Shown here: piece after piece, positions 1 through 15,232 of the stretch
Layout of the letters: the number at the start of each line of letters is the position of its first letter
Numbering within the stretch: the first letter of the stretch is position 1
DNA from: Paracoccaceae bacterium
Lineage (GTDB): Bacteria > Pseudomonadota > Alphaproteobacteria > Rhodobacterales > Rhodobacteraceae
Direction of reading: 5' to 3'
Assembly: GCA_023260835.1 (NCBI GenBank)
Contig: JALQTR010000020.1
Span: 1-33,563 of the forward strand
DNA length: 33,563 bases
Program-made: the position numbers and the translations under genes
Notes under the pieces: generated by a model
Databases searched by the model: none
Told to the model about the DNA's origin: nothing
What the model saw: the letters and a program-made list of their open reading frames with translations, nothing else

Positions 1-2018
1 AGGGTCGAGGCATCCAGCAGGCCAAGGCTGTTCCGGGTGGCCAGAACCTCGCGGTTGACAGCGTCGCGCACGCTCTCGCCCTTGCGCGGGAACGCATAGG
101 GGCGACGCCAGTGGCCGACCGGTTCCCAATGCGCGCCATTGGCTTCATGCCAGTCGTGCATCGGGGTCTTGCGGATCGGCTGGAAAATCTCGCCTCGGGC
201 CTGGCCTGCAATCGCACCCATCGAGATGGGCGTATAGGGCGGGCGGAACGTGGTGGTGCCGGTTTGCGGGATCGGCTGATCCAGCGCATCGGACAGAATG
301 GCCAAACCGTTGATGTTGGACAATTTGCCCTGATCGGTCGCCATGCCCAGCGTGGTGTAACGTTTGGTGTGTTCGACGCTTTCATACCCTTCGCGGGCGG
401 CCAGTTGCACATCCGACACTTTCACATCATTCTGATAATCCAGCCAGGCTTTGCTGCGCAATTTATGCGGGGCGCCTTGGGGCATCAGCCACACGGGTGC
501 CAATGGCGCCTCGGCCACGGCATCGATTTGGGGGGCAGCGGCATTGCTGCTGGCGCCCAGACGGGCCAATGCTGCATTGGTGCCTTCGGTGACATCGGCC
601 ATGATATCGCCCGCTTGCAGTGCGCCATTGGCGGTGCCGACGGCGGTGACAAAAGCATCGCCATTGTCGCCCGTTGGGGCCTGTGCGGAATCGGGGCGGA
701 ACATGGCATTGGCGTCATCCCAGATCAATTTGCCGCCGCAATGCGACCACAGATGCACAATCGGGGACCAGCCACCGGACATGGCCACCGCATCACATGG
801 CAATTCAAACAGCGGCGCGCCTTCGCCCTGCTGGGCGCAGATCACAACGCCGGTTACGCGCTTGCCGCCTTTGACCTTGGCTATGCCTTTGCCGCATTCA
901 ACGCGGATGCCCTTGGCGCGGGCCTCTTCCATCAGCGCGCCGCCACCCTCTGGGCGGGCGTCGATAATCGCGGGTACGTTCAGCCCTGCATCCACCAGAC
1001 AAAGGGCCGTGCGATAGGCGTCATCATTATTGGTGACAACAACGGTGCGATCGCCAATCGACACACCCCAGTTCACCACATAATCACGAACGGCCGAAGC
1101 CAGCATCACGCCGGGGATATCATTGCCCGCAAAGGACAATGGCCGTTCAATCGCACCTGTCGCGGTGATGACCTGCGTGGCGCGGATTTTCCACAACCGG
1201 TGGCGCGGGGCGTCCATCAATGGTGCATGATCAGTGATCCGTTCATACCCCAGCACATAGCCATGGTCATAAACCCCCACGCCCATGAACCGCGTGTGCA
1301 GGGTAACATTTTCCATCGCCGACAGCTGGGCAATCGCATCGTCCAGCCAATCCTGCGCAGGTTTGCCATCCACCATGACACCATCCACGGGTGCGCGGCC
1401 GCCCCAATGGGCAGTCTGTTCGATCAGCATCACCTTTTTACCGCTTTTTGCGGCCTGCAGCGCCGATTGCACACCAGCAATCCCGCCGCCCACAATCAAC
1501 AAATCGGTGTAGGCATAAAAATGTTCATACCGATCCGCATCGCGTGTTTCCGCGTCCGGAGCCTTGCCCAGACCCGCAGATTGACGGATGAACGGTTCAT
1601 ACACATGTTTCCAAAAGGCACGCGGATACATGAACATCTTATAATAGAACCCCGCCGGCAAAAACCGCGACAGGTAGTTATTCACAACACCGATATCAAA
1701 TTCCAAGCTGGGAAAATGGTTCTGCGATCCGGCGGTCAGACCGTCGAACAATTCGGTTGTGGTGGCGCGCTGGTTGGGTTCAAACCGCTTGCCAGTGCCC
1801 ATATTGAACAGCGCATTAGGCTCTTCCGAGCCAGAGGCAACAACCCCACGTGCGCGGTGATATTTGAACGAACGGCCCATCAGCATCTGATCATTCGCCA
1901 ACAGCGCAGATGCCAGCGTATCCCCCGCATAGCCTTTGAAATGTTTGCCGTTAAAGGTGAACGACATCGGTTTATTTTTGTCGACGAACCGACCGGTTGA
2001 TGACAGACGTGTGCTCAT
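1..2018 (-). CDS. soxA: Sarcosine oxidase alpha subunit (partial, C-terminus beyond left edge)
   Basis: Minus-strand frame reads MSTRLSSTGRFVDKNKPMSFTFNGKHFKGYAGDTLASALLANDQMLMGRSFKYHRARG..., then LLIVGGGIAGVQSALQAAKSGKKVMLIEQ and on to ...LGLLDAST at the window edge; sits directly after soxB and soxD. The supplied ORF track lists only the antisense + frame. Confidence 0.93.
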   Translation of the reverse strand, partial: MSTRLSSTGRFVDKNKPMSFTFNGKHFKGYAGDTLASALLANDQMLMGRSFKYHRARGVVASGSEEPNALFNMGTGKRFEPNQRATTTELFDGLTAGSQNHFPSLEFDIGVVNNYLSRFLPAGFYYKMFMYPRAFWKHVYEPFIRQSAGLGKAPDAETRDADRYEHFYAYTDLLIVGGGIAGVQSALQAAKSGKKVMLIEQTAHWGGRAPVDGVMVDGKPAQDWLDDAIAQLSAMENVTLHTRFMGVGVYDHGYVLGYERITDHAPLMDAPRHRLWKIRATQVITATGAIERPLSFAGNDIPGVMLASAVRDYVVNWGVSIGDRTVVVTNNDDAYRTALCLVDAGLNVPAIIDARPEGGGALMEEARAKGIRVECGKGIAKVKGGKRVTGVVICAQQGEGAPLFELPCDAVAMSGGWSPIVHLWSHCGGKLIWDDANAMFRPDSAQAPTGDNGDAFVTAVGTANGALQAGDIMADVTEGTNAALARLGASSNAAAPQIDAVAEAPLAPVWLMPQGAPHKLRSKAWLDYQNDVKVSDVQLAAREGYESVEHTKRYTTLGMATDQGKLSNINGLAILSDALDQPIPQTGTTTFRPPYTPISMGAIAGQARGEIFQPIRKTPMHDWHEANGAHWEPVGHWRRPYAFPRKGESVRDAVNREVLATRNSLGLLDAST

Positions 2019-2109
2019 ACCATGACCCTTCCTGGGTTAGATCTGACTGGCCCCAATGGGCCAAAATAACGGGACCAAGGCGCGCGCCAGACTGGCGGCG
2101 CCTTGATGA

Positions 2110-2439
2110 TCAAGAAAAATCGCGCCAGCGCCAGCCGGGGCGTTTTGCGCTGATGGCGTCTTTGATCGCCTTGGGCGGTTCGGTCGTTTGCGCACTGTAG
2201 GTGCCAAACACCTCGAGGCTGGCTGTGCAGCGGGCCGCGTGGAACCATTTTCCGCAGCCATTCACATGGCGCCAGCGTTCAAAATGCACCCCTTTTGGGT
2301 TTTCGCGCGCAAACAGATAGGATTCAAATTCCTGATCCGAGCTGCCCGGCCCAAAGCGTTTCAGATGCGCCTCGCCGCCGGCGTGAAATTCCGTTTCTTC
2401 GCCTTTGACGCCGCAATAAGGACATTCAAGATACAGCAT
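2110..2439 (-). CDS. soxD: Sarcosine oxidase delta subunit
   Basis: 109 aa, MLYLECPYCGVKGEETEFHAGGEAHLKRFGP...RGCGKWF-type zinc-binding small subunit (here NGCGKWFHAAR); located between soxB and soxA. Confidence 0.93.
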   Translation of the reverse strand: MLYLECPYCGVKGEETEFHAGGEAHLKRFGPGSSDQEFESYLFARENPKGVHFERWRHVNGCGKWFHAARCTASLEVFGTYSAQTTEPPKAIKDAISAKRPGWRWRDFS

Positions 2440-2453
2440 GGTTGGCCCTTTCG

Positions 2454-3698
2454 TTAATGCGCAACGCCCGCGGCAACAGATTCATCAATGAATTTGCCTT
2501 CGCGGAAGCGGAACATGGAAAATTCTTCGGTCAGTGGCGAATGGCCTTTGGCCATCAATTCGGCCATGGCCCAACCGGACCCGGGGATTGCCTTAAACCC
2601 GCCGGTGCCCCAACCACAGTTCATAAAGATGCCCTCGACCGGGGTTTTGGACAAGATGGGCGAGCGGTCGCCAGTCATATCCACAATCCCGCCCCATTGG
2701 CGCAGCATCTTCAGACGCGAAATCATCGGGAATGTTTCGACCAGCGCCCGCACGGTTTCTTCGATATGGTGGAAGGATCCACGTTGGGTGTAGTTGTTGA
2801 ACCCATCGGTGCCACCGCCGATCACCATTTCGCCTTTGTCAGACTGGCTCATATAGCCATGCACGGTGTTGGCCATCACCACCACATCCATACAGGGTTT
2901 GATGGGTTCAGACACCAGCGCCTGCAGCGCCAGCGATTCCACCGGCAGACGGAAGCCCGCCATATCCGCCAAAACACCCGTATGGCCCGCCACAACAACA
3001 CCCAGCTTATCGCAGGCAATGTCACCGCGGGTGGTGTTAACACCGGTCACGCGGCCATTTTCTTTGGTGATGCCGGTGACTTCGCATTTTTGGATCACAT
3101 CCATACCCATGGCAGCACAGGCGCGGGCATAGCCCCAGGCCACCGCATCGTGGCGCGCGGTGCCACCGCGTTCTTGCCACAGCGCGCCCAATACGGGGTA
3201 ACGTGGCCCATGCAAATTGATGATCGGCACCAGTTTTTTGACCTCCTCTGGGCCAATAAACCGCGTTGCAACGCCTTGCAATTTATTCGCATGCGCGGTG
3301 CGCAAATAGCCGCGTTTTTCATGTTCGGTCTGCGCCAGCATCATCACACCGCGGGGGCTGAACATCACGTTATAGTTCAGGTCCTGCGACATAGTTTCAT
3401 ACAGCGAGCGCGACTTTTCATAAATCGCCGCCGATGGGTCTTGCAGATAATTGGATCGGATAATCGTGGTGTTCCGGCCCGTGTTACCACCGCCCAGCCA
3501 GCCTTTTTCGATGATCGCCACATTGGTGATCCCGAAATTTTTGCCCAGATAATAGGCGGTTGCCAAACCATGCCCACCGGCACCAATAATTATCACGTCA
3601 TAACGCTTTTTCGGCGCGGCATTTGGCCAGGCGCGATCCCATCCTGTGTGATCACGCAGCGCCTCGCGTGCGACGGCAAATACGGAATATTTTCTCAT
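2454..3698 (-). CDS. soxB: Sarcosine oxidase beta subunit
   Basis: MRKYSVFAVAREALRDHTGWDRAW...YDVIIIGAGGHGLATAYYLGKNFGITNVAIIEKGWLGGGNTGRNTTIIRSNYL; FAD dinucleotide-binding motif and SoxB hallmark. The ORF track start at 3713 is an alternative five codons upstream. Confidence 0.94.
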   Translation of the reverse strand: MRKYSVFAVAREALRDHTGWDRAWPNAAPKKRYDVIIIGAGGHGLATAYYLGKNFGITNVAIIEKGWLGGGNTGRNTTIIRSNYLQDPSAAIYEKSRSLYETMSQDLNYNVMFSPRGVMMLAQTEHEKRGYLRTAHANKLQGVATRFIGPEEVKKLVPIINLHGPRYPVLGALWQERGGTARHDAVAWGYARACAAMGMDVIQKCEVTGITKENGRVTGVNTTRGDIACDKLGVVVAGHTGVLADMAGFRLPVESLALQALVSEPIKPCMDVVVMANTVHGYMSQSDKGEMVIGGGTDGFNNYTQRGSFHHIEETVRALVETFPMISRLKMLRQWGGIVDMTGDRSPILSKTPVEGIFMNCGWGTGGFKAIPGSGWAMAELMAKGHSPLTEEFSMFRFREGKFIDESVAAGVAH

Positions 3699-3817
3699 CA
3701 CGGTTGATTCCATTTATCCATGGGTGTTCCAGATTTACATAGATCAACGCCAATTTCGCCATTGGCGTCATGCGTCATAAATGCCGCTGCTTGCGACATG
3801 GGGCGCCATGGGCTGGA

Positions 3818-4573
3818 TTAGGATGCGTAATCGCTGCCCTCATCATCCAAAATGGCCTTCAATTCAGCCAAATGGCGGCCGGCTTGATCGGGGTAATCAT
3901 CCAATTCGGCCGCGGTTTTGCTGGCCACCGCATCGCTGAGGATGCGCAAGGGTCGCCCCGTTTGCAGCGCAAGAATATAGGTTTCAACCGCCCGTTCAAA
4001 ATAATACAGCCGATTAAACGTGTCCGCCACACTGTCGCCCAGAACCAAAACGCCGTGATTGCCCATAATCATGGTTTTCACCTTCGGATCCGTCAAAAGG
4101 GCGGCGCAGCGGGCGCCCTCATCCTCGAACGCCAAACCGCCAAACCCATCATCAATCACATAGCGATCATAAAACATGGCGGTGTTTTGATCGATCGGAG
4201 GCAGGCGGCTGTCAGCCAAGGACGCCAGCACCGTGGCATAACGCGAATGCACATGCATGACACAGCGCGCATGCGGACAGGCGCGATGGATGGACCCATG
4301 CAGCCCCCATGCGGTTGGGTCGGGCGCATCGGGCATATCCATCGTGCTGGTATCATGCGCATCCAACAGCAGCAGGTCCGATGCTTTGATCCGTGAAAAA
4401 TGACGCTGATTGGGGTTCATTAAAAACTGCGTGCCATCCTCGTTCACCGCCAGGCTGAAATGATTGGCCACGGCTTCGTGCATATTCAGCCGCGCGGTCC
4501 AGCGAAAGCTGGCGGCCAAATCCACCCGTTCTTGCCAATGCGTCAGGTTGCTGTGATGTGATCCATCCGCCAT
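3818..4573 (-). CDS. Class II aldolase/adducin family protein
   Basis: MADGSHHSNLTHWQERVDLAASFRW...HGSIHRACPHARCVMHVHSRYATVLASL...MIMGNHGVLVLGDSVADTFNRLYYFERA; metal-binding HVHS and GNHGVLV motifs. Start 4573 preferred over 4624. Confidence 0.9.
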   Translation of the reverse strand: MADGSHHSNLTHWQERVDLAASFRWTARLNMHEAVANHFSLAVNEDGTQFLMNPNQRHFSRIKASDLLLLDAHDTSTMDMPDAPDPTAWGLHGSIHRACPHARCVMHVHSRYATVLASLADSRLPPIDQNTAMFYDRYVIDDGFGGLAFEDEGARCAALLTDPKVKTMIMGNHGVLVLGDSVADTFNRLYYFERAVETYILALQTGRPLRILSDAVASKTAAELDDYPDQAGRHLAELKAILDDEGSDYAS

Positions 4574-4646
4574 AATTCTTTCCCCTTTTTTGCACAGATT
4601 GGCAGGTCGCATCATCCCAGGCAATAAAATTAATTAGGGCCAGCCC

Positions 4647-5522
4647 CTATGGCGCCGCATCCCGGCCCAATTGATCCATGAACCGCTGCGCAACGGGGCT
4701 GAGCTTGCGATCTGGGGATTGAATTTTAATCAGATGCCGCTGAAATGATTGGCCGTGTGGCACGATAAAGCGAATATCAGGATCCGAAATCAGCGCGGTT
4801 TTGGGCAAGATCGTTGCACCAATCCCCGCACGCACAAAGGCCAAAAGGGCCGTTGTATTTTGTGCAGCCAATGTGCCTTTGACCAGCTGATCCTGCACAA
4901 AGGGGTGATCGACCAGCGCACACAGGGAATTGGCGATGAACGGCTCCAGCTGCAAAACATCCCAATCTGGGCAGGTGTCATCAGCACAATGCCGCGCAAT
5001 GGGGCCATCTTTATGGCAGATAATGCCCATATGATCGCTCAGGATCACTTGGCCTTCGGGTTGATCCCCCACGGGGGCGGATATGATGCCGATATCGGCC
5101 TCGTCAAATTGAATACGACGGCGGACCGATGCGCTGTCCACATCGCTGATATCCAGCCGCACATCTGGATGATCTTGGCGAAACCGGGCCACCACACGCG
5201 GCAGTAATGTCACGGTGGCCGATGGAACCGCCGCAATGCGGATTGTTCCGGCGACAGATGTGGCATGGCGTTCGATCGCATCCAGACTGCGGATAAAGGC
5301 ATCATTGGCGCGGCGGCTTTCTTCCAGTATCAGGCGGCCCAAAGGGGTAAGCCGGTTCTTACGGTCAGTTTCGAACAGGCGATCCCCGATATGATCCTCG
5401 AGCTGCGACAGCATCATTGACACAGCCGATGGGGTGCGTCCCAATTTTGCCGCCGCCAAGGACAGCGCCCCCTGCTCTGCCACGGTTTGAAACACCCGCA
5501 ACATTTCCAACTTGATCGCCAT
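4647..5522 (-). CDS. LysR-family transcriptional regulator
   Basis: MAIKLEMLRVFQTVAEQGALSLAAAKLGRTPSAVSMMLSQLEDHIGDRLFETDRKNRLTPLG: N-terminal wHTH of LysR family; divergent from the aldehyde dehydrogenase gene. Confidence 0.94.
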   Translation of the reverse strand: MAIKLEMLRVFQTVAEQGALSLAAAKLGRTPSAVSMMLSQLEDHIGDRLFETDRKNRLTPLGRLILEESRRANDAFIRSLDAIERHATSVAGTIRIAAVPSATVTLLPRVVARFRQDHPDVRLDISDVDSASVRRRIQFDEADIGIISAPVGDQPEGQVILSDHMGIICHKDGPIARHCADDTCPDWDVLQLEPFIANSLCALVDHPFVQDQLVKGTLAAQNTTALLAFVRAGIGATILPKTALISDPDIRFIVPHGQSFQRHLIKIQSPDRKLSPVAQRFMDQLGRDAAP

Positions 5523-5619: not shown

Positions 5620-7065
5620 ATGCAAACGAAACTATATATTAATGGCCGTTGGCAAGATGGCATCAGCACCGTGGAAAACCGCAACCCGTCTGATTTAACT
5701 GATGTGATTGGCCATTTTGCCCAAGCCAGCACCGAACAGCTGAACGACGCATTGGATGCGGCGCGCGCGGCGCAGCCGCTGTGGTGGGGGGCTGGCATTC
5801 AAAAACGCCATGATGTGCTGATGGCCATTGGCACCGAATTGATGGCGCGCAGCACCGAAATCGGCGAAATGATTGCCCGCGAAGAGGGCAAGCCCCGCGC
5901 CGAGGGCGTGGGCGAGGTATACCGCGCAGGCCAATTCTTCACCTATTCGGCAGCCGAGGCCCTGCGCGGCCATGGCGATTTGGCCCAAAGCGTGCGGCCG
6001 GGGATCGAAATAGATGTACGCCGTGAACCCGTGGGCGTGGTGGCGATTATCAGCCCGTGGAATTTCCCCGTGGCAACGCCTGCGTGGAAAATCGCGCCCG
6101 CGCTGGCCTATGGCAATGCTGTGGTGTGGAAACCCGCAAATGCCACCCCTGCCAGCGCCATTATGATGGCCGAAATCATCGCCAAACAGGATATTCCTGC
6201 GGGGCTGTTCAATCTGGTCAGCGGCGCAGGGCGCGCCGTGGGGCAGGCCCTAGTCGAAAGCCATAAGGTGGATGCGATCAGCTTCACCGGGTCCGTGCCA
6301 GTGGGCCGCGGCATTGCCGCCGCCGCAGTGGCCAATATGACCAAAGTGCAGATGGAAATGGGATCGAAAAATCCAATGATCATCATGGATGATTGCGATC
6401 TGGATTTGGCCGTCGCCCACGCCGCGGGCGCAGCCTTTGGTGGCACTGGGCAAAAATGCACCGCTGCCAGCCGCCTGATTGTGCATGATAAAATCCATGA
6501 CGCTTTTGTGGACAAATTGGTGGCCGCGGCGCAGGCGCTGAAGGTCGGCCATGCGCTGGCGGATGGCACACAGATTGGCCCCGTGGTCAGCGCGCCGCAG
6601 CTGGCGCAAAATCTGGAGTATATCCAAATTGGTCAATCCGAAGGCGCCGAATTGCTGTGCGGCGGCACGCGTCTGGACATGGCCACCGATGGCTATTTCA
6701 TGGCCCCCGCCGTATTTGCCGGCACGCGTAATGATATGCGCATCAACCGCGAAGAAATGTTCGCCCCGATCACCTGCGTGATGCGCGCCGGCAGCTATGC
6801 CGAGGCCCTGTCCATCGCCAATGACAGCGAATTTGGCCTGACCGCCGGAATTATGACCCGCAACCTGGCCCGCGCCAGCCATTTTCGCGCCAATATGCGC
6901 GCCGGCTGCGTGATGGTGAACCTGCCCACCGCTGGTACCGATTACCATGTGCCATTTGGCGGGCGCGGCGCGTCCAGCTTTGGCCCGCGTGAACAGGGCA
7001 GCTATGCTGCGGAATTCTACACCACGGTCAAAACCGCCTATGTCCATGCAGGGGAGCCAGAATAA
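5620..7065 (+). CDS. Aldehyde dehydrogenase family protein (2-oxoglutarate-semialdehyde dehydrogenase-like)
   Basis: 481 aa; ISPWNFPVATPAWKIAPALAYGNAVVWKPA, SFTGSVPVGRGI, EMGSKNPMIIMDDCDLDLAV, GGTGQKCTAASR (catalytic Cys). Confidence 0.93.
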   Translation: MQTKLYINGRWQDGISTVENRNPSDLTDVIGHFAQASTEQLNDALDAARAAQPLWWGAGIQKRHDVLMAIGTELMARSTEIGEMIAREEGKPRAEGVGEVYRAGQFFTYSAAEALRGHGDLAQSVRPGIEIDVRREPVGVVAIISPWNFPVATPAWKIAPALAYGNAVVWKPANATPASAIMMAEIIAKQDIPAGLFNLVSGAGRAVGQALVESHKVDAISFTGSVPVGRGIAAAAVANMTKVQMEMGSKNPMIIMDDCDLDLAVAHAAGAAFGGTGQKCTAASRLIVHDKIHDAFVDKLVAAAQALKVGHALADGTQIGPVVSAPQLAQNLEYIQIGQSEGAELLCGGTRLDMATDGYFMAPAVFAGTRNDMRINREEMFAPITCVMRAGSYAEALSIANDSEFGLTAGIMTRNLARASHFRANMRAGCVMVNLPTAGTDYHVPFGGRGASSFGPREQGSYAAEFYTTVKTAYVHAGEPE

Positions 7066-8057
7066 TGGCTGCGCTGCTGGTTGACGGGCTGCAATACGCC
7101 AATTGGTCAGAAAAAATCTTTCGCCAAATGCGCGAAGGCGGGGTTGATGCGGTGCATGTGACCATCACCTATCACGAAACATTCCGCGAAACGGTGCTGA
7201 ACATTGAAAAATGGAACCGTTGGTTTGAACAATACCCCGATCTGATCTTTCAGGGCCGCACCGCCGCCGATATCACACGCGCCCGCACCGAAGGGCGCAC
7301 CGCGATCTTCTTTGGATCACAAAATCCATCCTGCATGGAAGATGACATCGGTCTGATTGAAATCCTGCACACCTTGGGCCTGCGGTTTATGCAGCTGACC
7401 TATAACAACCAATCCCTGCTGGCCAGCGGCTGTTACGAGGCCGAGGACAGCGGATTAACCCGCATGGGCCGCCAAGTGGTCAGCGAAATGAACCGCGTGG
7501 GGCTTGTGGTGGACATGAGCCATTCTGCCCCCCGCTCTACGCTGGATGCGATCGAACATTCCACTCGCCCCATCGCGATCACCCATGCCAATCCCGCCAG
7601 CTGGCATCCCGCGCTGCGCAATAAATCGGATGATATCCTGCGCGCCCTGGGTCAAAGCGGCGGGATGCTGGGCTTTTCAATCTATCCGCATCACCTGCAG
7701 GGCGGGCCGGATTGCACATTGGACAGCTTTTGCCAGATGATCATGCGCACAGCTGATCTGATGGGACCAGAGCATATCGGGATCGGCACCGACCTGTGCC
7801 AAGATCAACCCGACAGCATCGTGGAATGGATGCGCGTTGGCCGCTGGAGTAAAACCATCGATTACGGCGAAGGCAGCGCATCAAACCCCGGCTTCCCGCC
7901 AATGCCCGATTGGTTCCAAGACAACCGCCATTTCGGCCGCATCCGCGACGGCCTGCGCGCCGCCGGCATGAATGCCGCTGACATCGACGGCGTTATGGGC
8001 GGCAATTGGCACCGCTTTTATGAAACCAGTTTCGGGCCGGCAGATCGCCAGCTCTAA
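7065..8057 (+). CDS. M19 (membrane dipeptidase)-family protein with atypical metal site
   Basis: GLRFMQLTYNNQSLLASGCYEAEDSGLTRMGRQVVSEMNRVGLVVDMSHS...ITHANP...GIGTDL: M19-like C-terminal motifs; start overlaps the aldehyde dehydrogenase stop by 1 nt. Confidence 0.85.
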   Translation: MAALLVDGLQYANWSEKIFRQMREGGVDAVHVTITYHETFRETVLNIEKWNRWFEQYPDLIFQGRTAADITRARTEGRTAIFFGSQNPSCMEDDIGLIEILHTLGLRFMQLTYNNQSLLASGCYEAEDSGLTRMGRQVVSEMNRVGLVVDMSHSAPRSTLDAIEHSTRPIAITHANPASWHPALRNKSDDILRALGQSGGMLGFSIYPHHLQGGPDCTLDSFCQMIMRTADLMGPEHIGIGTDLCQDQPDSIVEWMRVGRWSKTIDYGEGSASNPGFPPMPDWFQDNRHFGRIRDGLRAAGMNAADIDGVMGGNWHRFYETSFGPADRQL

Positions 8058-8120: not shown

Positions 8121-9668
8121 ATGAGCGATACGTCACAAACCAAACCAGCAGCCGGCCTGCTGGGTCGGGTCGACAGACCCCTATTTGCAATCACAGCGGG
8201 GTTTATTGCGCTGTTTTGTCTTCTGGCTATGATTGATTTGGACATGTTGTCAGGCTTGGTCGATGCAGGGTTTGCTTGGTCTGCGAAATATTTTGGCCTT
8301 TACTGGCAGGTCCTGTTGCTGGCCACATTCTTGATCGGTCTGGTGCTGTGTGTCCTGCCAGGTGGCCGCGCTGTTTTAGGCGGATTAACGGCACCTGAAT
8401 TTTCCAATTTCCAGTGGGGGTCCATGATCATGTGTACCCTGCTGGCAGGCGGCGGTGTGTTTTGGGCCGCGGGCGAACCGATAGCCCATTATCTGTGGAC
8501 CCCGCCTTTGTTTGGCGATTTATCCGGCGATGAAACCTCCCGCGCCCATGCCGCACTGGCGCAGGCCTATTTGCACTGGGGCTTTCTGGCCTGGGCCATT
8601 TTGGGTGCGCTGACCACCGTCATGCTGATGCATTACCATTATGAAAAGGGCCTGCCACTGGCCCCGCGCACACTGCTGTATCCCGTGTTCAAGGATCGGG
8701 CAATCAATGGCCCAATCGGTCTGATTGCCGATGCGTCCTGCATTATTGCCGTTGTTGCCGGCACTGTTGGTCCGATTGGATTTTTGGGCCTGCAAATGTC
8801 TTATGGTCTGAACGCTTTGTTTGGCATCCCTGACACATTTGCAACCCAAGCCGTCATGATCCTTGGCTTGGCCGGTATTTACATTGTTTCGGCCATTTCA
8901 GGCCTGAACAAAGGCATTCAGCTGCTGTCCAAATTCAACGTGGTTTTGGCCTTTGCCCTGATGGCGTTTATGCTGGTCTTTGGCCCAACCGCATCGATCT
9001 TGTCGGGCTTTTTCGGCGGTATGGGAACCTATTTGTCCAATTTCTTTGGCATGGCTATGTTCCGCGGTGATGCGGGCCTGTTTGGCGAACCCGGCTGGCT
9101 GGGTTGGTGGACCGTGTTCTTTTGGGGCTGGTTCTTGGGCTACGGTCCGTTGATGGCGATCTTTATTGCAAAAATCAGCCGTGGGCGGTCGATCCGATCG
9201 ATCATCATCCTGTTGGCGGTGATCGCGCCGATCATCACCAATTTCTGGTTCACCATTATCGGTGGCAGCGGGATTGCATTGGAACAGGCCACCGCTGGCG
9301 TGATTTCCGGCCCATTCGAAGGGTTCAACCTGCCCGCAGGGCTGCTGGCGATCACCCAAGCCATGCCAATGGGATTCATCCTGTCCCTGCTGTTTTTAGT
9401 TCTGACCATGATCTTTGTCGCAACCACATCCGACTCCATGAGCTTCGTCATCGCCACAGCCATGTCAGATGACAACCCATCCACCGCATTGCGCGCCTTT
9501 TGGGGGGCCGCCATGGCCGTGATGGCACTGATCCTGATCGCCACAGGCAGCGGCGGTGTTGGCAAATTGCAAAGCTTCATTGTGGTAACGGCTGTGCCTG
9601 TATCGCTGGTGCTGTTGCCGTCACTTTGGGATGCGCTGCGTATTACATTGGCTTTGGGTCGTCGCTGA
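8121..9668 (+). CDS. BCCT-family (betaine/carnitine/choline) transporter
   Basis: 515 aa polytopic; GGGVFWAAGEPIAHYLWTPP, WTVFFWGWFLGYGPLMAIFIAKISRGRSIR typical of BCCT; SD ggagg upstream. Confidence 0.93.
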   Translation: MSDTSQTKPAAGLLGRVDRPLFAITAGFIALFCLLAMIDLDMLSGLVDAGFAWSAKYFGLYWQVLLLATFLIGLVLCVLPGGRAVLGGLTAPEFSNFQWGSMIMCTLLAGGGVFWAAGEPIAHYLWTPPLFGDLSGDETSRAHAALAQAYLHWGFLAWAILGALTTVMLMHYHYEKGLPLAPRTLLYPVFKDRAINGPIGLIADASCIIAVVAGTVGPIGFLGLQMSYGLNALFGIPDTFATQAVMILGLAGIYIVSAISGLNKGIQLLSKFNVVLAFALMAFMLVFGPTASILSGFFGGMGTYLSNFFGMAMFRGDAGLFGEPGWLGWWTVFFWGWFLGYGPLMAIFIAKISRGRSIRSIIILLAVIAPIITNFWFTIIGGSGIALEQATAGVISGPFEGFNLPAGLLAITQAMPMGFILSLLFLVLTMIFVATTSDSMSFVIATAMSDDNPSTALRAFWGAAMAVMALILIATGSGGVGKLQSFIVVTAVPVSLVLLPSLWDALRITLALGRR

Positions 9669-9680
9669 CCCTATGTATAA

Positions 9681-9704
9681 TGGGGCGGCGGTTGCGCCGC
9701 CCCA
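9681..9704 (+). terminator. Intercistronic GC-rich hairpin (no T tract)
   Basis: T GGGGCGGCG-GTTG-CGCCGCCCC A: perfect 9-10 bp stem 13 nt after the BCCT stop codon. Confidence 0.5.
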
Positions 9705-9739
9705 ACTTTGCTAATCTGAACTTTGCAAAAGGTATTGAT

Positions 9740-11413
9740 ATGACCGATGCCGTCCATCGCTCCGACACTCCACTTGGACCGTTGCACAGATCACCTGACC
9801 AGGTGATGCGTTTGGCCCGCATGGGCAGCGCCCATCCGATGCGTCTGTCATTTCTTCGCGTTTTGCTGCGCCGTGTCGCGCAAGAAGGGTGGGAATTCAC
9901 TCGCACGCATTGGCAAATGGATGCCCGCGGCGTGGGCCGCGCCGTATACCGCGCCAAGGGGCCGCAGCGCAGCTATTCTTTGGTGGCCTTTGCCCATGAT
10001 CTACCAGATGAGGCCCGATCCGATCGGGTCATTGCCACCGCTTGGGATGCCACCTTCACCCTGTTTGATGGTGAACCAACACCCACCGATCTGGACCGTT
10101 TGGCCGCCAATGTCCCCTTGCAAGAGGCCGGACGCATCAGCGCAAAGGAATTATCACTGAGCCGCGCCAACCGGTCTGTGCGCCTGTTCAATCACGTGGT
10201 TGACCGTTTATCCAAAGGGCAGCAACCCGATATGGATCAGATCGACGCGGTTGGATACCTGATGCGCACCACAGCCGTCTATGGATCGGGAAAATTTGGC
10301 GCCGCCGACCGCGCATTGATCGCAGATCGCGCAGAATTATCCGCGCCGTTTCAGGCTGAAATGCTGTCGGTCTGGCTGACACGATGGTTCATCATGGATC
10401 TGGTCAACCATCTGGCCGCACATAAGGGCGGCGCGCAGGCGGCGCAGCTGGATCCGGGCATCGCCCGCCGCCTGGGTGTTGGCAATTCCACCGGTTTGGG
10501 CATGGCCCCCTTTTTGGTCCGCCACCCCACATTGATCAACAATTGGATTTTCGCCCGCGAAGAGGCATTGGCCCGCGTCCGCGCCCTGCCCGGGGTAACT
10601 GCGGATCAGGGTGTCACGCTGAAAAATACATTGGCAGCAGCACAGGAAAATGCCGCCCATTGGCAATCGGATCATCCCATCCAAATCGCCAAACTGGCCG
10701 ATTTACGCCAGGATCTGGCTGCCATCGAAACCCATCTGACCCAATGGCCGGCGGGTCAAATGCCATGGAACGCATTATGGCTGTGGGGGCAGGATCATCT
10801 GTCGATCGAAGGGCAAGAGGCATTGCTGTCCATCATGCTGGAACCCCATGGGGACCTGATCGACGGGTTGGCCGAATGCATGAACGCAGACGAGGCCAAA
10901 GCCTTTCGCATCAATGGCGCGATGCCCATCGCCGATCTGCGACACATATTGCAAACCCATTACGATTGGGCGTTGAAGATCGATTTCAACGACCCCGGGC
11001 AAATGGCGCGGTTTTGGTACGTTTCTGAAGAAAAGCTGGAGCCACGGCTCGGCGAACGGTTTTTGGAGGACGGCGCCGAATTGGAACAACCGCTTGCCAT
11101 CGCGCATTTGGCCCGCAAACTGTATGATGCATTGGCGGCCTGGGATGACACAGCCCCCGTTGCGGCCCTTTTGTTGGCCCATCCGCAGCACCGCCTGATG
11201 GTGCGCCGCGCCCAAGCCGCGCCCAAATACCCCTTCGCCGAGGTCAGGGACAATCTGATCGCCCATGATATGCTGCCGATTGATCTGATGCGCTGTAAAT
11301 TGGCTTTCTTTGGGGCGACGCGGTTTGACCCGCGGTCTGACAAATGGGTGCGCATCAGCCTGTTCAGCGGCATGTCCTATCCGTTTGAAATCACCGCTGG
11401 GGGCGCGATATGA
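9740..11413 (+). CDS. Uncharacterised conserved-looking protein (557 aa)
   Basis: MTDAVHRSDTPLGPLHRSPDQVMRLARMGSAHPMRLSFLRVLLRRVAQEGWEF...FEITAGGAI; ATG preceded by aaaaggt; no domain I recognise; stop overlaps the next start (ATGA). Confidence 0.8.
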   Translation: MTDAVHRSDTPLGPLHRSPDQVMRLARMGSAHPMRLSFLRVLLRRVAQEGWEFTRTHWQMDARGVGRAVYRAKGPQRSYSLVAFAHDLPDEARSDRVIATAWDATFTLFDGEPTPTDLDRLAANVPLQEAGRISAKELSLSRANRSVRLFNHVVDRLSKGQQPDMDQIDAVGYLMRTTAVYGSGKFGAADRALIADRAELSAPFQAEMLSVWLTRWFIMDLVNHLAAHKGGAQAAQLDPGIARRLGVGNSTGLGMAPFLVRHPTLINNWIFAREEALARVRALPGVTADQGVTLKNTLAAAQENAAHWQSDHPIQIAKLADLRQDLAAIETHLTQWPAGQMPWNALWLWGQDHLSIEGQEALLSIMLEPHGDLIDGLAECMNADEAKAFRINGAMPIADLRHILQTHYDWALKIDFNDPGQMARFWYVSEEKLEPRLGERFLEDGAELEQPLAIAHLARKLYDALAAWDDTAPVAALLLAHPQHRLMVRRAQAAPKYPFAEVRDNLIAHDMLPIDLMRCKLAFFGATRFDPRSDKWVRISLFSGMSYPFEITAGGAI

Positions 11414-12048
11414 ACCATAATTCCGCATTCAGCCAAACAGAATTTGAAACCCTTTGCGGCAAGGCGGCACGTGGGGCCGGTTTGGATTGGGGCCTTGCGG
11501 AAGAGGCCGGCAAAGCCGCCGGCTGGATGTACATCCGCGGCATTAATGCCGCCTCGGCATTGGTGAAGGCAATCAGCAGCGCACCAAGCCCCGCACCCAT
11601 TTGCGGCGATGATAACTGGGGTGGGCAAACCCCAATTTGCCCGATCCACACAGGCGCTGCTTTGGTCGATTATGCGGGGCTGAATGCCCTGCCCAGCCGC
11701 ATCACAAATCTGCGCCAACCGGTGATGATCATCCCATTTTTGGCAATGGCCGCCGATCTGATGGGGTGCCAATTCGACCTTTTGTGCAACGACATCCGGC
11801 TGTCTGTGACTGCGCAGGCCATCATAGGGGCTGCAGATGATCTGTGCGCTTTAACAGGTTTAGACTGTGCCACAGTGCAGATCACCGCCGCGGCCATAAC
11901 GGCGCAACCAGATCACAAACCCCAATTCGCTGTGGTGGACCCATCCGCAATCGCAGCGCTTGACGCGCTTGGCGCGCGAACCTATGTCCCGGCCACCGAA
12001 AGCTCACGCCAAAGTGGCGCAGGGGCAGGCACTTCTGACAATGATTAA
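11410..12048 (+). CDS. DUF3726-like protein (tentative)
   Basis: MNHNSAFSQTEFETLCGKAARGAGLDWGLAEEAGKAAGWMYIRGINAASALVKAI; resembles DUF3726 proteins from memory; ATGA overlap with upstream gene. Confidence 0.75.
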   Translation: MNHNSAFSQTEFETLCGKAARGAGLDWGLAEEAGKAAGWMYIRGINAASALVKAISSAPSPAPICGDDNWGGQTPICPIHTGAALVDYAGLNALPSRITNLRQPVMIIPFLAMAADLMGCQFDLLCNDIRLSVTAQAIIGAADDLCALTGLDCATVQITAAAITAQPDHKPQFAVVDPSAIAALDALGARTYVPATESSRQSGAGAGTSDND

Positions 12049-12059
12049 AGGAATATAAC

Positions 12060-12419
12060 ATGACCGTAACGCGTCTTGACGCTGGCCCCCGCATGAGCGA
12101 GGCCGTCATCAATGGTGACACCGTGTATCTGGCTGGCCAAGTCCCAGAAAATCTGGATGGGGACATCACCCAGCAAACCCAGGAAGTCCTGGCCGAAATC
12201 GATGCGCTGATGGCGCGTCTGGGCGGGTCGAAATCTGATTTGTTGTCCTGCCAAATTTGGCTGACCGATATGGCCGATTTCCCCGGTATGAACGCCGTTT
12301 GGGACGCTTGGGTGGATCAATCCAACCCACCGGCGCGCGCCACCTGCGGCATTGCTGCGCTTGCTCGTCCTGGAATGCGCATTGAAATCATCGCAATTGC
12401 GCGTAACCCAAAAACCTGA
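12060..12419 (+). CDS. RidA (YjgF/YER057c/UK114) family protein
   Basis: 119 aa MTVTRLDAGPRMSEAVINGDTVYLAGQVPENLDGDITQQTQEVLAEIDALMARLGGSKSDLLSCQIWLTDMADFPGMNAVWDAWVDQSNPPARATC...RIEIIAIA. Confidence 0.9.
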   Translation: MTVTRLDAGPRMSEAVINGDTVYLAGQVPENLDGDITQQTQEVLAEIDALMARLGGSKSDLLSCQIWLTDMADFPGMNAVWDAWVDQSNPPARATCGIAALARPGMRIEIIAIARNPKT

Positions 12420-12468: not shown

Positions 12469-12864
12469 CTAGTCCACAGGTTGCGCGGCCCAAAGTTCAA
12501 TCTCGACCTTGAAGTCAGGGCGCGTGAACCCCGACACAATCAACAGCGTTGAACTGGGCAGCCGCGCCTGATCGCCGATGAATTCATCCCGAGCACGCAT
12601 ATAATCAGCCATAAAAGCACGATCCGTCACATAGGCCGAAATATGCGCCGTATCCGCCGGACCCATGCCACCTTCGGCCAAAATATGGCGGATGTTATCA
12701 AAACACAGGCGCGCCTGATCATAGGCACCGGACGGCACCTGCCCATCCGGCGTGATCGCCAGCTGGCCGGATGTGCGGATCATGCGCATCCCTTCAGGAA
12801 TTTCTGTTCCGTGGGAATAGGCGCCAAAAGGGGGATGCAGCGCATTTGGATTTAAGGCCTTCAT
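12469..12864 (-). CDS. RidA-family protein (second, divergent paralogue)
   Basis: MKALNPNALHPPFGAYSHGTEIPEGMRMIRTSGQLAITPDGQVPSGAYDQARLCFDNIRHILAEGGMGPADTAHISAYVTDRAFMADYMRARDEFIG; start 12864 preferred over 13065. Confidence 0.9.
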   Translation of the reverse strand: MKALNPNALHPPFGAYSHGTEIPEGMRMIRTSGQLAITPDGQVPSGAYDQARLCFDNIRHILAEGGMGPADTAHISAYVTDRAFMADYMRARDEFIGDQARLPSSTLLIVSGFTRPDFKVEIELWAAQPVD

Positions 12865-13026
12865 GGGGTCTCCTTTCCTGTTGCTTGGGCTTGCCAGCTG
12901 GTTTTGATTCTGGCAAGAATTGATCACTCTCTGGCACAGATGACTGTAAGGGCCACAAACAATCCTGATGAACGCGGGGGGATGATTTGTGTTCTGTGAT
13001 ATCTTCAAAAAAACCGGACAGCGGAT

Positions 13027-13821
13027 ATGATGGCGCAGGGATATTGGGCGCAGATGTCGCGCCAAACGATGCAGGCCTTATCTACGGATACAATTGCTGT
13101 GCTGCCATTGGGGGCAACCGAACAACATGGCCCGCATTTGCCATTCAGCGTTGACAGCGATTTAATCGACGCGGTTACGACACGTATGTTGGGCGCCCTA
13201 GCACCTGATCAATCGGTGTTGGTCCTGCCGACATTGCACATCACCAAAAGCGATGAGCACACAGATTTCCCCGGCAGTTTGGCATTAGGCGCCGAAACAT
13301 TACTGGCCGTGATCCGTGATATCGGGGCCTCAATCGTGCGTGCAGGTGTGCAGCGGTTGGTGTTTTTCAACGGCCATGGGGGCAATTCGGCCCTGTTGCA
13401 GATTGCTGCGCGCAATTTGCGCCGACAGCACGGCCTGATTGTTGTCAGCTGTTCATGGGGCGGGTTTGCCGATTGGCAGGGGCTGTTTGATCCGCAGGAT
13501 TACGCGGTGGATATTCATGCGGGCGACAGTGAAACCTCGGCCATGTTGGCCCTGCACCCCGAATTGGTGAACATGGATCACGCCGAAAATTTTCGCCCTG
13601 CAATGGACAGTTGGGCGCATGATTTTCCCCAAATCGGCCTGACCGGCCAAGCCGCGTCCCCCGGATGGTTGGCGCAGGATCTGAACCCATCGGGCGCCTG
13701 CGGCAATGCCGCAGCGGCCACCGCCCAAAAGGGCCACCAATTGCTGGACAGCGCAGGTCGCAATTTTGCCAAATTTCTGGCTGAATTTTCCCGATTTGAT
13801 CACCGCAAACCACACCCTTGA
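13027..13821 (+). CDS. Creatininase-family amidohydrolase
   Basis: LPLGATEQHGPHLPFSVDSDLIDAV, RLVFFNGHGGNSALLQIAARN, IHAGDSETSAMLAL: complete creatininase metal-ligand motifs. Confidence 0.93.
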   Translation: MMAQGYWAQMSRQTMQALSTDTIAVLPLGATEQHGPHLPFSVDSDLIDAVTTRMLGALAPDQSVLVLPTLHITKSDEHTDFPGSLALGAETLLAVIRDIGASIVRAGVQRLVFFNGHGGNSALLQIAARNLRRQHGLIVVSCSWGGFADWQGLFDPQDYAVDIHAGDSETSAMLALHPELVNMDHAENFRPAMDSWAHDFPQIGLTGQAASPGWLAQDLNPSGACGNAAAATAQKGHQLLDSAGRNFAKFLAEFSRFDHRKPHP

Positions 13822-13831
13822 AAGCATACTC

Positions 13832-15232
13832 ATGTCACAGACGACCCCTGAATCCGCCATAGATTGGGCCGCCATCGCCGCAAAGCTGGCGCCCGTTGCG
13901 GTGATTGATGAACCCGTTTTGGTGAAAAAGCGATCCCGCGATTTTTTCTGGTATTCGCCCATTTTAAACGAACAGCTGAAGCGCTGTTTTGGGGATCTGG
14001 TCGCACAGCCAAAATCGCGCGCGGAGTTGGCGCATTGTTTGGCCATCGCCTATGCGCATGATCTGCCAGTTGTTTTGCGCGGTGGCGGCACGGGCAATTA
14101 CGGCCAAGCGGTCCCGCTGCAGGGTGGTCTGATCATCGAAACCACCGGCATGAATCGCATTTTGGAAATTGGGGACGGGTTTGTCCGTGTCGAAGCCGGC
14201 GCGCTGATGGCGGATATTAACAAGGCGCTTTTGCCCCATGGCTGGGAAATGGCCATGTTTCCATCCACCCAAGACATCGCCACAATCGGCGGATTTATCG
14301 CCGGCGGCAGCGCCGGAATTGGGTCCATTTCAAATGGCGCTTTGCGCGAAAAGGGAAACATCATCCAGCTGAAGGCCCTATCCGTGGACAGCACCCCGAA
14401 AGAGCATACCTTTGATGCCGAAGACGCCCTGCAACTGCACCACGCCTGGGGCCTGAACGGCGCCATAACGGAAATAACACTGCGCACTGTGCCCACGCGT
14501 GATTGGGTGGGTTGCATGGCCAGCTTTGACACCTATCATGCCTGTTATGCCGCGGGATACGCGCTGGCATCATCAGACAGCATCGGGCGCAAATTATGTT
14601 CAACGCTGGATGCGCGCATTGCCGATTATTTTCCGCGCCTAAAGGGACATATTCGGCCGGACAAAGATCTGTTGGTGGCCCTTGTCCCACAAGAGGATGT
14701 CGCCGCATTTCGCACCCTGATGCACGACCATGGCGGGCATGTGGATTTATGCATGACCGATGCGCAGCGCAGGTCCAATAACCTGCCTCATGTATTTGAA
14801 TTTGCCTATAATCACACAACCCTTCAGGTGCTGAAGGCAGATCGGACCGCAACCTATCAACAGGTGGGGGTTCCCGATGCATCCGATGCGGCCCGCGTGG
14901 CGGCAATGGGTGCATTACAGGGCGATGATCTGTGGCAACATCACGAATTTGCCCGTCTAAACGGACAGGTGGTCGCCTTTGAGCTGCCCATTATATGGTT
15001 CACCAATTCGGCCCGCCTGCGCGAAATTGATGCCACCTATGAAGCCGGCGGTTTCCCCGTTTATGACGCACATTGTTATTTTGTCGAAGGCGGCGGTTTA
15101 AAAAGCGCGGATTATCGCCATTTGGCGTGGAAAAAACGGATGGATCCAAAGGGGTTGCTGAACCCCGGAAAATCCCGCGTCTGGCCCAAGGTTCAAAACC
15201 TAAGCCCCGAAGACATCGAGGCCAAAGCCTGA
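13832..15232 (+). CDS. FAD-binding oxidoreductase (GlcD / PCMH-type FAD domain)
   Basis: LPVVLRGGGTGNYGQAVPLQGGLIIETTGMNRILEIGDGFVRVEAGALMADINKALLPHGWEMAMFPSTQDIATIGGFIAGGSAGIGS; terminal ...RMDPKGLLNPGK. Confidence 0.92.
   Translation: MSQTTPESAIDWAAIAAKLAPVAVIDEPVLVKKRSRDFFWYSPILNEQLKRCFGDLVAQPKSRAELAHCLAIAYAHDLPVVLRGGGTGNYGQAVPLQGGLIIETTGMNRILEIGDGFVRVEAGALMADINKALLPHGWEMAMFPSTQDIATIGGFIAGGSAGIGSISNGALREKGNIIQLKALSVDSTPKEHTFDAEDALQLHHAWGLNGAITEITLRTVPTRDWVGCMASFDTYHACYAAGYALASSDSIGRKLCSTLDARIADYFPRLKGHIRPDKDLLVALVPQEDVAAFRTLMHDHGGHVDLCMTDAQRRSNNLPHVFEFAYNHTTLQVLKADRTATYQQVGVPDASDAARVAAMGALQGDDLWQHHEFARLNGQVVAFELPIIWFTNSARLREIDATYEAGGFPVYDAHCYFVEGGGLKSADYRHLAWKKRMDPKGLLNPGKSRVWPKVQNLSPEDIEAKA

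Follow-up and report, generated by a model that had tools for sequence, protein, structure and literature searches.

Closest described systems

The dimethylglycine dgc operon of Pseudomonas and Vibrio is headed by a "dipeptidase" gene and a gene for a hypothetical protein (PMC12093977, PMC8079746). The locus analysed here shares with it this association of a dipeptidase-like protein and hypothetical proteins with N-methyl amine breakdown, but its hypothetical proteins are X557, of 557 aa, and a DUF3726 protein of 212 aa, and DgcAB is missing. Neither dgcA nor dgcB was found as a conserved neighbour next to the M19 dipeptidase-like gene in 50 loci.

The other comparable system is the catabolism of homarine (N-methylpicolinate). 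A conserved homarine pathway was reportedly described by Ferrer-Gonzalez et al. 2026 (Nat Microbiol 11:1531, doi 10.1038/s41564-026-02313-7), and its operon is said to be named homABCDER. Another paper (PMC13390433) gives N-methylglutamate dehydrogenase a part in the breakdown of homarine and cites a conserved pathway. The ecology and the auxiliary enzymes of our locus fit this pathway, and it may be the same operon. Our literature search, whose scope did not include the 2026 homarine-pathway paper, returned nothing on these genes under DUF3726, homABCDER or PA5396, and a link to the trigonelline genes of S. meliloti was sought in the literature and not found. The DUF3726 family (PF12525) has no assigned function; here it is tied to X557 and resembles the N-terminus of Ldh_2 enzymes.

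Gene organization of the locus

The window (the whole stretch of DNA analysed, 33,563 nt) belongs to a MAG which is 85% complete. The operon and its surroundings contain the following features:

4647-5522, minus strand: LysR-type regulator, an ORF divergent from the operon
5620-7065, plus strand: aldehyde dehydrogenase (ALDH); Pfam Aldedh, 1e-156
7065-8057, plus strand: M19 dipeptidase-like protein, non-canonical, the constant third partner; Pfam Peptidase_M19, 7e-73, nearest PDB entry 2i5g
8121-9668, plus strand: BCCT transporter of quaternary amines, an optional partner; Pfam BCCT, 9e-144
9681-9704, plus strand: 10-bp G+C-rich hairpin at the BCCT/X557 junction, seen in the sequence
9740-11413, plus strand: X557, 557 aa, presumed main or catalytic subunit; no family match
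11410-12048, plus strand: DUF3726 protein, 212 aa; PF12525, E 4e-12, residues 7-55
12060-12419, plus strand: RidA-family imine/enamine hydrolase; Pfam, 5e-27

The original prediction described an ATGA overlap between the two uncharacterised genes, with a RidA gene 11 nt on and ALDH, M19-like and BCCT genes upstream. This layout is matched by the ORFs at 9740-11413, 11410-12048 and 12060-12419, and the three upstream genes were confirmed on the same strand by ORFs and Pfam. The TGA of X557 overlaps the ATG of the DUF3726 gene at 11410 (sequence ATATGAACC), and 11 nt separate the DUF3726 gene from that of RidA. The X557 frame is open upstream as far as a TTG at 9500; the ATG at 9740 is supported as the start because alignments with homologues begin at about residue 15-17. 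The best NCBIfam model for the ALDH was alpha-ketoglutaric semialdehyde dehydrogenase (NF042993), with 488.8 bits, below the cut-off of 770. RidA occupies in the window the slot that Ldh_2 holds in many relatives.

The hairpin at 9681-9704 is a perfect 10 bp and has no T-run. Similar hairpins with different sequences lie at the same junction in four other loci (L006, L063, L090 and L091), which suggests mRNA processing or attenuation between the transporter and the enzyme genes.

Pairing of X557 and DUF3726

Of 289 alphaproteobacterial genomes sampled, 39 had X557, as did 22 of 299 sampled across the phylum. Within the alphaproteobacterial set 32 genomes had DUF3726; all 32 also carried X557, and in every one (32/32) the DUF3726 gene immediately followed X557 in the same orientation. 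When 50 loci were fully read, DUF3726 stood directly 3' of X557 in 49, with an in-frame start at a -4 overlap in 26 of the 50. In the fiftieth (locus L105 of genome G057, 8950-11556) both are fused in a single ORF of 868 aa, where X557 makes up residues 26-563 and the DUF3726 domain residues 603-846. Of all the evidence that X557 and DUF3726 act as a unit, this natural fusion is the strongest. Pairwise distances of the two proteins were also correlated (Spearman 0.81). The pairing is obligate, as had been predicted; homologues occurring apart from each other were the other possibility considered, and the pair was never separate in the 50 loci. Small low-GC genomes of 1.2-1.6 Mb, perhaps SAR11-like, carry the trio (M19, X557 and DUF3726) or the pair.

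Sequence and structure of X557

X557 had no match at E<=1 in Pfam and NCBIfam and none at E<=0.1 in PHROGs and PADLOC, and PDB sequences gave a single chance match (E 0.29). The earlier view of a protein with no recognised domain stands. When 12 homologues were scanned singly against Pfam, scattered single weak matches were all that appeared; searches of known defence and phage families gave no match, and a scan of viral contigs found no relative. The AlphaFold model, built from a four-sequence input, had a pLDDT of 58, and Foldseek with this model returned no meaningful fold match. Across 58 sequences 34 positions are near-invariant, ten of them Arg and none Cys, His or Lys.

DUF3726 and its resemblance to Ldh_2

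The 212-aa protein scored 46.3 bits (E 4e-12) against PF12525, above the gathering cut-off of 22.1, and its earlier assignment as DUF3726-like is well founded. Its AlphaFold model had a pLDDT of 63. Many Ldh_2 enzymes were among the best Foldseek matches of this model, all non-significant (best E 0.21), and we used them solely as a pointer to a profile test. In this test, hhalign of DUF3726 against Ldh_2 from the same loci gave scores of 42-43.5 (P 2-3e-5), while 14 other families scored 8-22 and 30 column shuffles did not exceed 18.9. The alignment covers mainly the N-terminal 48 residues or so and is unconvincing beyond. With Ldh_2 (PF02615, including 1wtj) the DUF3726 protein has an N-terminal helical segment in common; however, Ldh_2 is an NAD(P) reductase of about 335 aa with an SHG motif, whereas the DUF3726 protein has 212 aa and this motif is absent from it. 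Among 12 DUF3726 members at best one matched the Pfam Ldh_2 model (E 0.11). We consider DUF3726 as a shrunken relative of Ldh_2, a partner subunit rather than a member of that family, and probably non-catalytic. The pair had been called the most opaque part of the window; this still applies to X557, but not wholly to DUF3726, whose N-terminus is related to Ldh_2 by hhalign.

The most conserved part of DUF3726 is the extreme C-terminus, SRxxGAGAGxxDND, with A204 and G205 kept in 52 of 52 sequences. This tail could reach into the active site of the partner.

Two loci of same-family genomes (L130 and L132) contain truncated Ldh_2 ORFs of 248 and 271 aa, which match only about the N-terminal 140 positions. 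X557 was not seen within these short loci.

The M19 protein as third partner

An M19 gene was found in 42 of the 50 X557 loci and was absent nearby in the other eight; by tblastn it was detected in 43 of 47 X557 loci and in none of 40 control stretches. In part of a distant clade the M19 gene is found on the 3' rather than the 5' side of the pair, which argues that the link between M19 and X557 is more than shared ancestry of gene order. Distance correlation with X557 was 0.76 for M19, 0.56 for ALDH, 0.38 for BCCT and 0.37 for Ldh_2. Among the neighbours of the pair M19 is the constant partner, and BCCT and RidA are optional.

In canonical M19 enzymes HxD, a Glu and two His are ligands of a binuclear metal site. 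By profile our protein belongs to the same renal dipeptidase family and shares two His and an Asp with it, but HxD is replaced by LQY and the metal-ligand Glu by Gln. The same changes (HxD to LQx, Glu to Gln, two His and Asp kept) run through the subfamily, in close and distant neighbours among the variants listed. A canonical binuclear zinc site is not expected to form where HxD and the bridging Glu are missing, and the protein is probably not a dipeptidase. The nearest solved relative is PDB 2i5g, annotated as amidohydrolase. The earlier label of a transporter/amidohydrolase operon needs correction on both words: the M19 protein is not a canonical amidohydrolase, and BCCT is present in 12 of 47 loci.

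Neighbourhood of the pair

Gene content was compared between 47 X557 loci and 40 control stretches drawn from those genomes; since the loci are interrelated, the p values are indicative. BCCT genes occurred in those 12 loci and in no control stretch (p 3e-4), which supports the predicted quaternary-amine setting. More broadly, genes for quaternary-amine transport were near 23 loci against 6 control stretches (p 7e-4) and N-demethylation genes near 14 against 3 (p 0.008). ALDH (22/47 against 4/40), the LysR homologue (15/47 against 0/40) and DMGDH-like FAD proteins (9/47 against 1/40) were also more frequent, and MTTB, Rieske and DMGDH-like genes lie near the pair in some loci. About 30% of the loci lack both betaine-transport and N-methyl genes in their vicinity. 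In the distant clade polyamine-type ABC or oligopeptide-type transporters are found instead, so substrates probably differ between clades. The pair does occur apart from BCCT, partly in line with one of the doubts attached to the original prediction, and this weakens the idea that this transporter defines the system.

Ldh_2 was found in 18 of 47 loci and RidA in 8 of 47, each against 0 of 40, and one or the other in 26 of 47 against 0 of 40 (p 1e-9). Within the operons of the 50 loci Ldh_2 appears 15 times and RidA five times, never together. In a tree built from 58 X557 proteins, well-supported branches force no fewer than four changes of the RidA label. The X557 of the window is sister to that of L002 (support 100/100) in a large alphaproteobacterial clade, where the usual handler is Ldh_2. 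Two unrelated imine-handling proteins repeatedly fill one slot, and this argues for an imine or enamine product. The operon Ldh_2 is closest to 1wtj, a delta1-piperideine-2-carboxylate reductase (199 bits against 139 for the next), which indicates an imine with a 2-carboxylate. The suggestion that RidA handles an enamine or imine is strengthened by these results, but RidA itself is optional.

In loci L096 and L097, M19, X557 and DUF3726 stand in one operon with an MTTB-family methyltransferase located upstream of M19 and X557; just upstream in L096 are a PEP-mutase-like gene, a homocysteine S-methyltransferase and a DMGDH-like protein. The MTTB setting of these loci could reveal the substrate class.

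Proposed function and alternatives

We propose that X557 and DUF3726 form one heteromeric catabolic enzyme, with M19 as usual third component, that catalyses the committed step on an imported N-methylated or quaternary amine (probability about 0.55). The computation shows the obligate pairing and the fusion, the link to M19 and the loss of metal ligands in it, the likeness of DUF3726 to Ldh_2, and that RidA and Ldh_2 are enriched and replace each other; that the module is an enzyme, which reaction it catalyses on which substrate, and what the DUF3726 tail does, we infer. A zwitterionic N-methylated or quaternary amine would enter through BCCT, or through ProXWV in some relatives. X557 would bind the carboxylated substrate by its conserved arginines, and DUF3726, probably without a nucleotide-binding domain, would complete the active site with its C-terminal SRxxGAG tail. 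C-N or ring opening would give an imine or enamine and an aldehyde. The aldehyde may be oxidised by the ALDH, and the imine may be hydrolysed by RidA, as in the window, or reduced by the relative of piperideine-2-carboxylate reductase, as in many relatives. As substrate we favour homarine or another 2-carboxylated N-methyl heterocycle. Homarine agrees with the class of transporter, with an imine reductase of picolinate-like type and with the occurrence of the genes in small genomes of low GC (1.2-1.6 Mb). Against the proposal stand the low confidence of the X557 model and its lack of a fold match, the loci with no betaine-transport or N-methyl gene close by, the other transporters of the distant clade and the shortness of the alignment between DUF3726 and Ldh_2. 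In addition, the operon content of the 50 loci showed no conserved oxygenase or flavin reductase beside the core, although redox chemistry is normally required to open an aromatic pyridinium.

It may be that the whole unit, comprising LysR, ALDH, M19, X557, DUF3726 and Ldh_2 or RidA, is simply the homarine catabolic operon of Ferrer-Gonzalez et al. 2026. This possibility, which we put a little short of even, overlaps with our proposal and would name its substrate, and the finding would then be largely known. The six genes here would agree with the six letters of the operon name, the transporters are of a class suited to a betaine, the Ldh_2 belongs to the picolinate-skeleton (piperideine-2-carboxylate) type, and streamlined low-GC genomes of 1.2-1.6 Mb carry the trio or the pair. 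The role of N-methylglutamate dehydrogenase and the conserved pathway cited in PMC13390433 point in the same direction. However, the sox-like genes adjoining the operon are a family-wide paralogue and not the copies found near gmaS-type genes, and other transporters are used in the distant clade. A more doubtful alternative is that the module works as a demethylase or lyase in parallel to the dgc operon, with stachydrine, carnitine, glycine betaine or a similar betaine as its substrate. The nearest M19 structure, 2i5g, is presumably the dgc-operon protein of P. aeruginosa, and the M19 protein of that operon may belong to the same branch. This alternative would also suit the dipeptidase and hypothetical protein genes preceding dgcAB (PMC12093977, PMC8079746), and the MTTB, Rieske and DMGDH-like genes nearby in some loci; but dgcAB was not seen in our operons, SoxA was not enriched near X557 (5/47 loci against 2/40 control stretches), and known betaine demethylases already account for such substrates without X557.

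A non-catalytic role of X557 and DUF3726, as partners of the M19 protein or the ALDH in regulation or assembly, seems improbable to us. It would suit the lack of a recognisable catalytic domain, of near-invariant Cys, His and Lys in X557, and the resemblance of DUF3726 to a degenerate Ldh_2, but the pair occurs in eight of 50 loci without M19 nearby, and the near-invariant positions of X557 with their many Arg are what one would expect of an active site more than of a scaffold.

The heteromeric enzyme could also be read in a bolder and rather unlikely form, in which the trio is an enzyme class with no relative described so far. It would open N-methylated heterocycles such as homarine by a route that involves no classical oxygenase, and would be spread in marine and soil Pseudomonadota including streamlined marine-type genomes.

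If the proposed enzyme role is true, it would give a first role to the X557 family, which has no Pfam entry, and to DUF3726, and would explain the recurrent "dipeptidase" without metal ligands in N-methyl amine operons. X557 with DUF3726 would then mark marine and soil bacteria, among them some with genomes of 1.2-1.6 Mb, that break down a nitrogen-containing compatible solute. The reaction type would be directly testable through the repeated alternation of RidA with an imine reductase.

Genes flanking the operon

At the left edge of the window (1-4624, minus strand) are sarcosine-oxidase-like genes (a soxB-soxD-soxA set) beside a class II aldolase-like gene; soxA is cut by the contig end. All 12 same-family genomes sampled have this soxB, at 72-86% identity. 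In two genomes (G564 and G572) the sox copies near gmaS-type genes are other paralogues, about 50% identical. We considered the sox-like genes of the window as the N-methylglutamate dehydrogenase of the pathway; this seems unlikely, since they are a family-wide core paralogue and Sox genes are not enriched near X557.

Just downstream of the operon there is a second, divergent RidA-family gene (12469-12867, minus strand). Its neighbours are a creatininase-like gene (13027-13821) and an FAD-linked oxidase gene (about 13829 to 15232).
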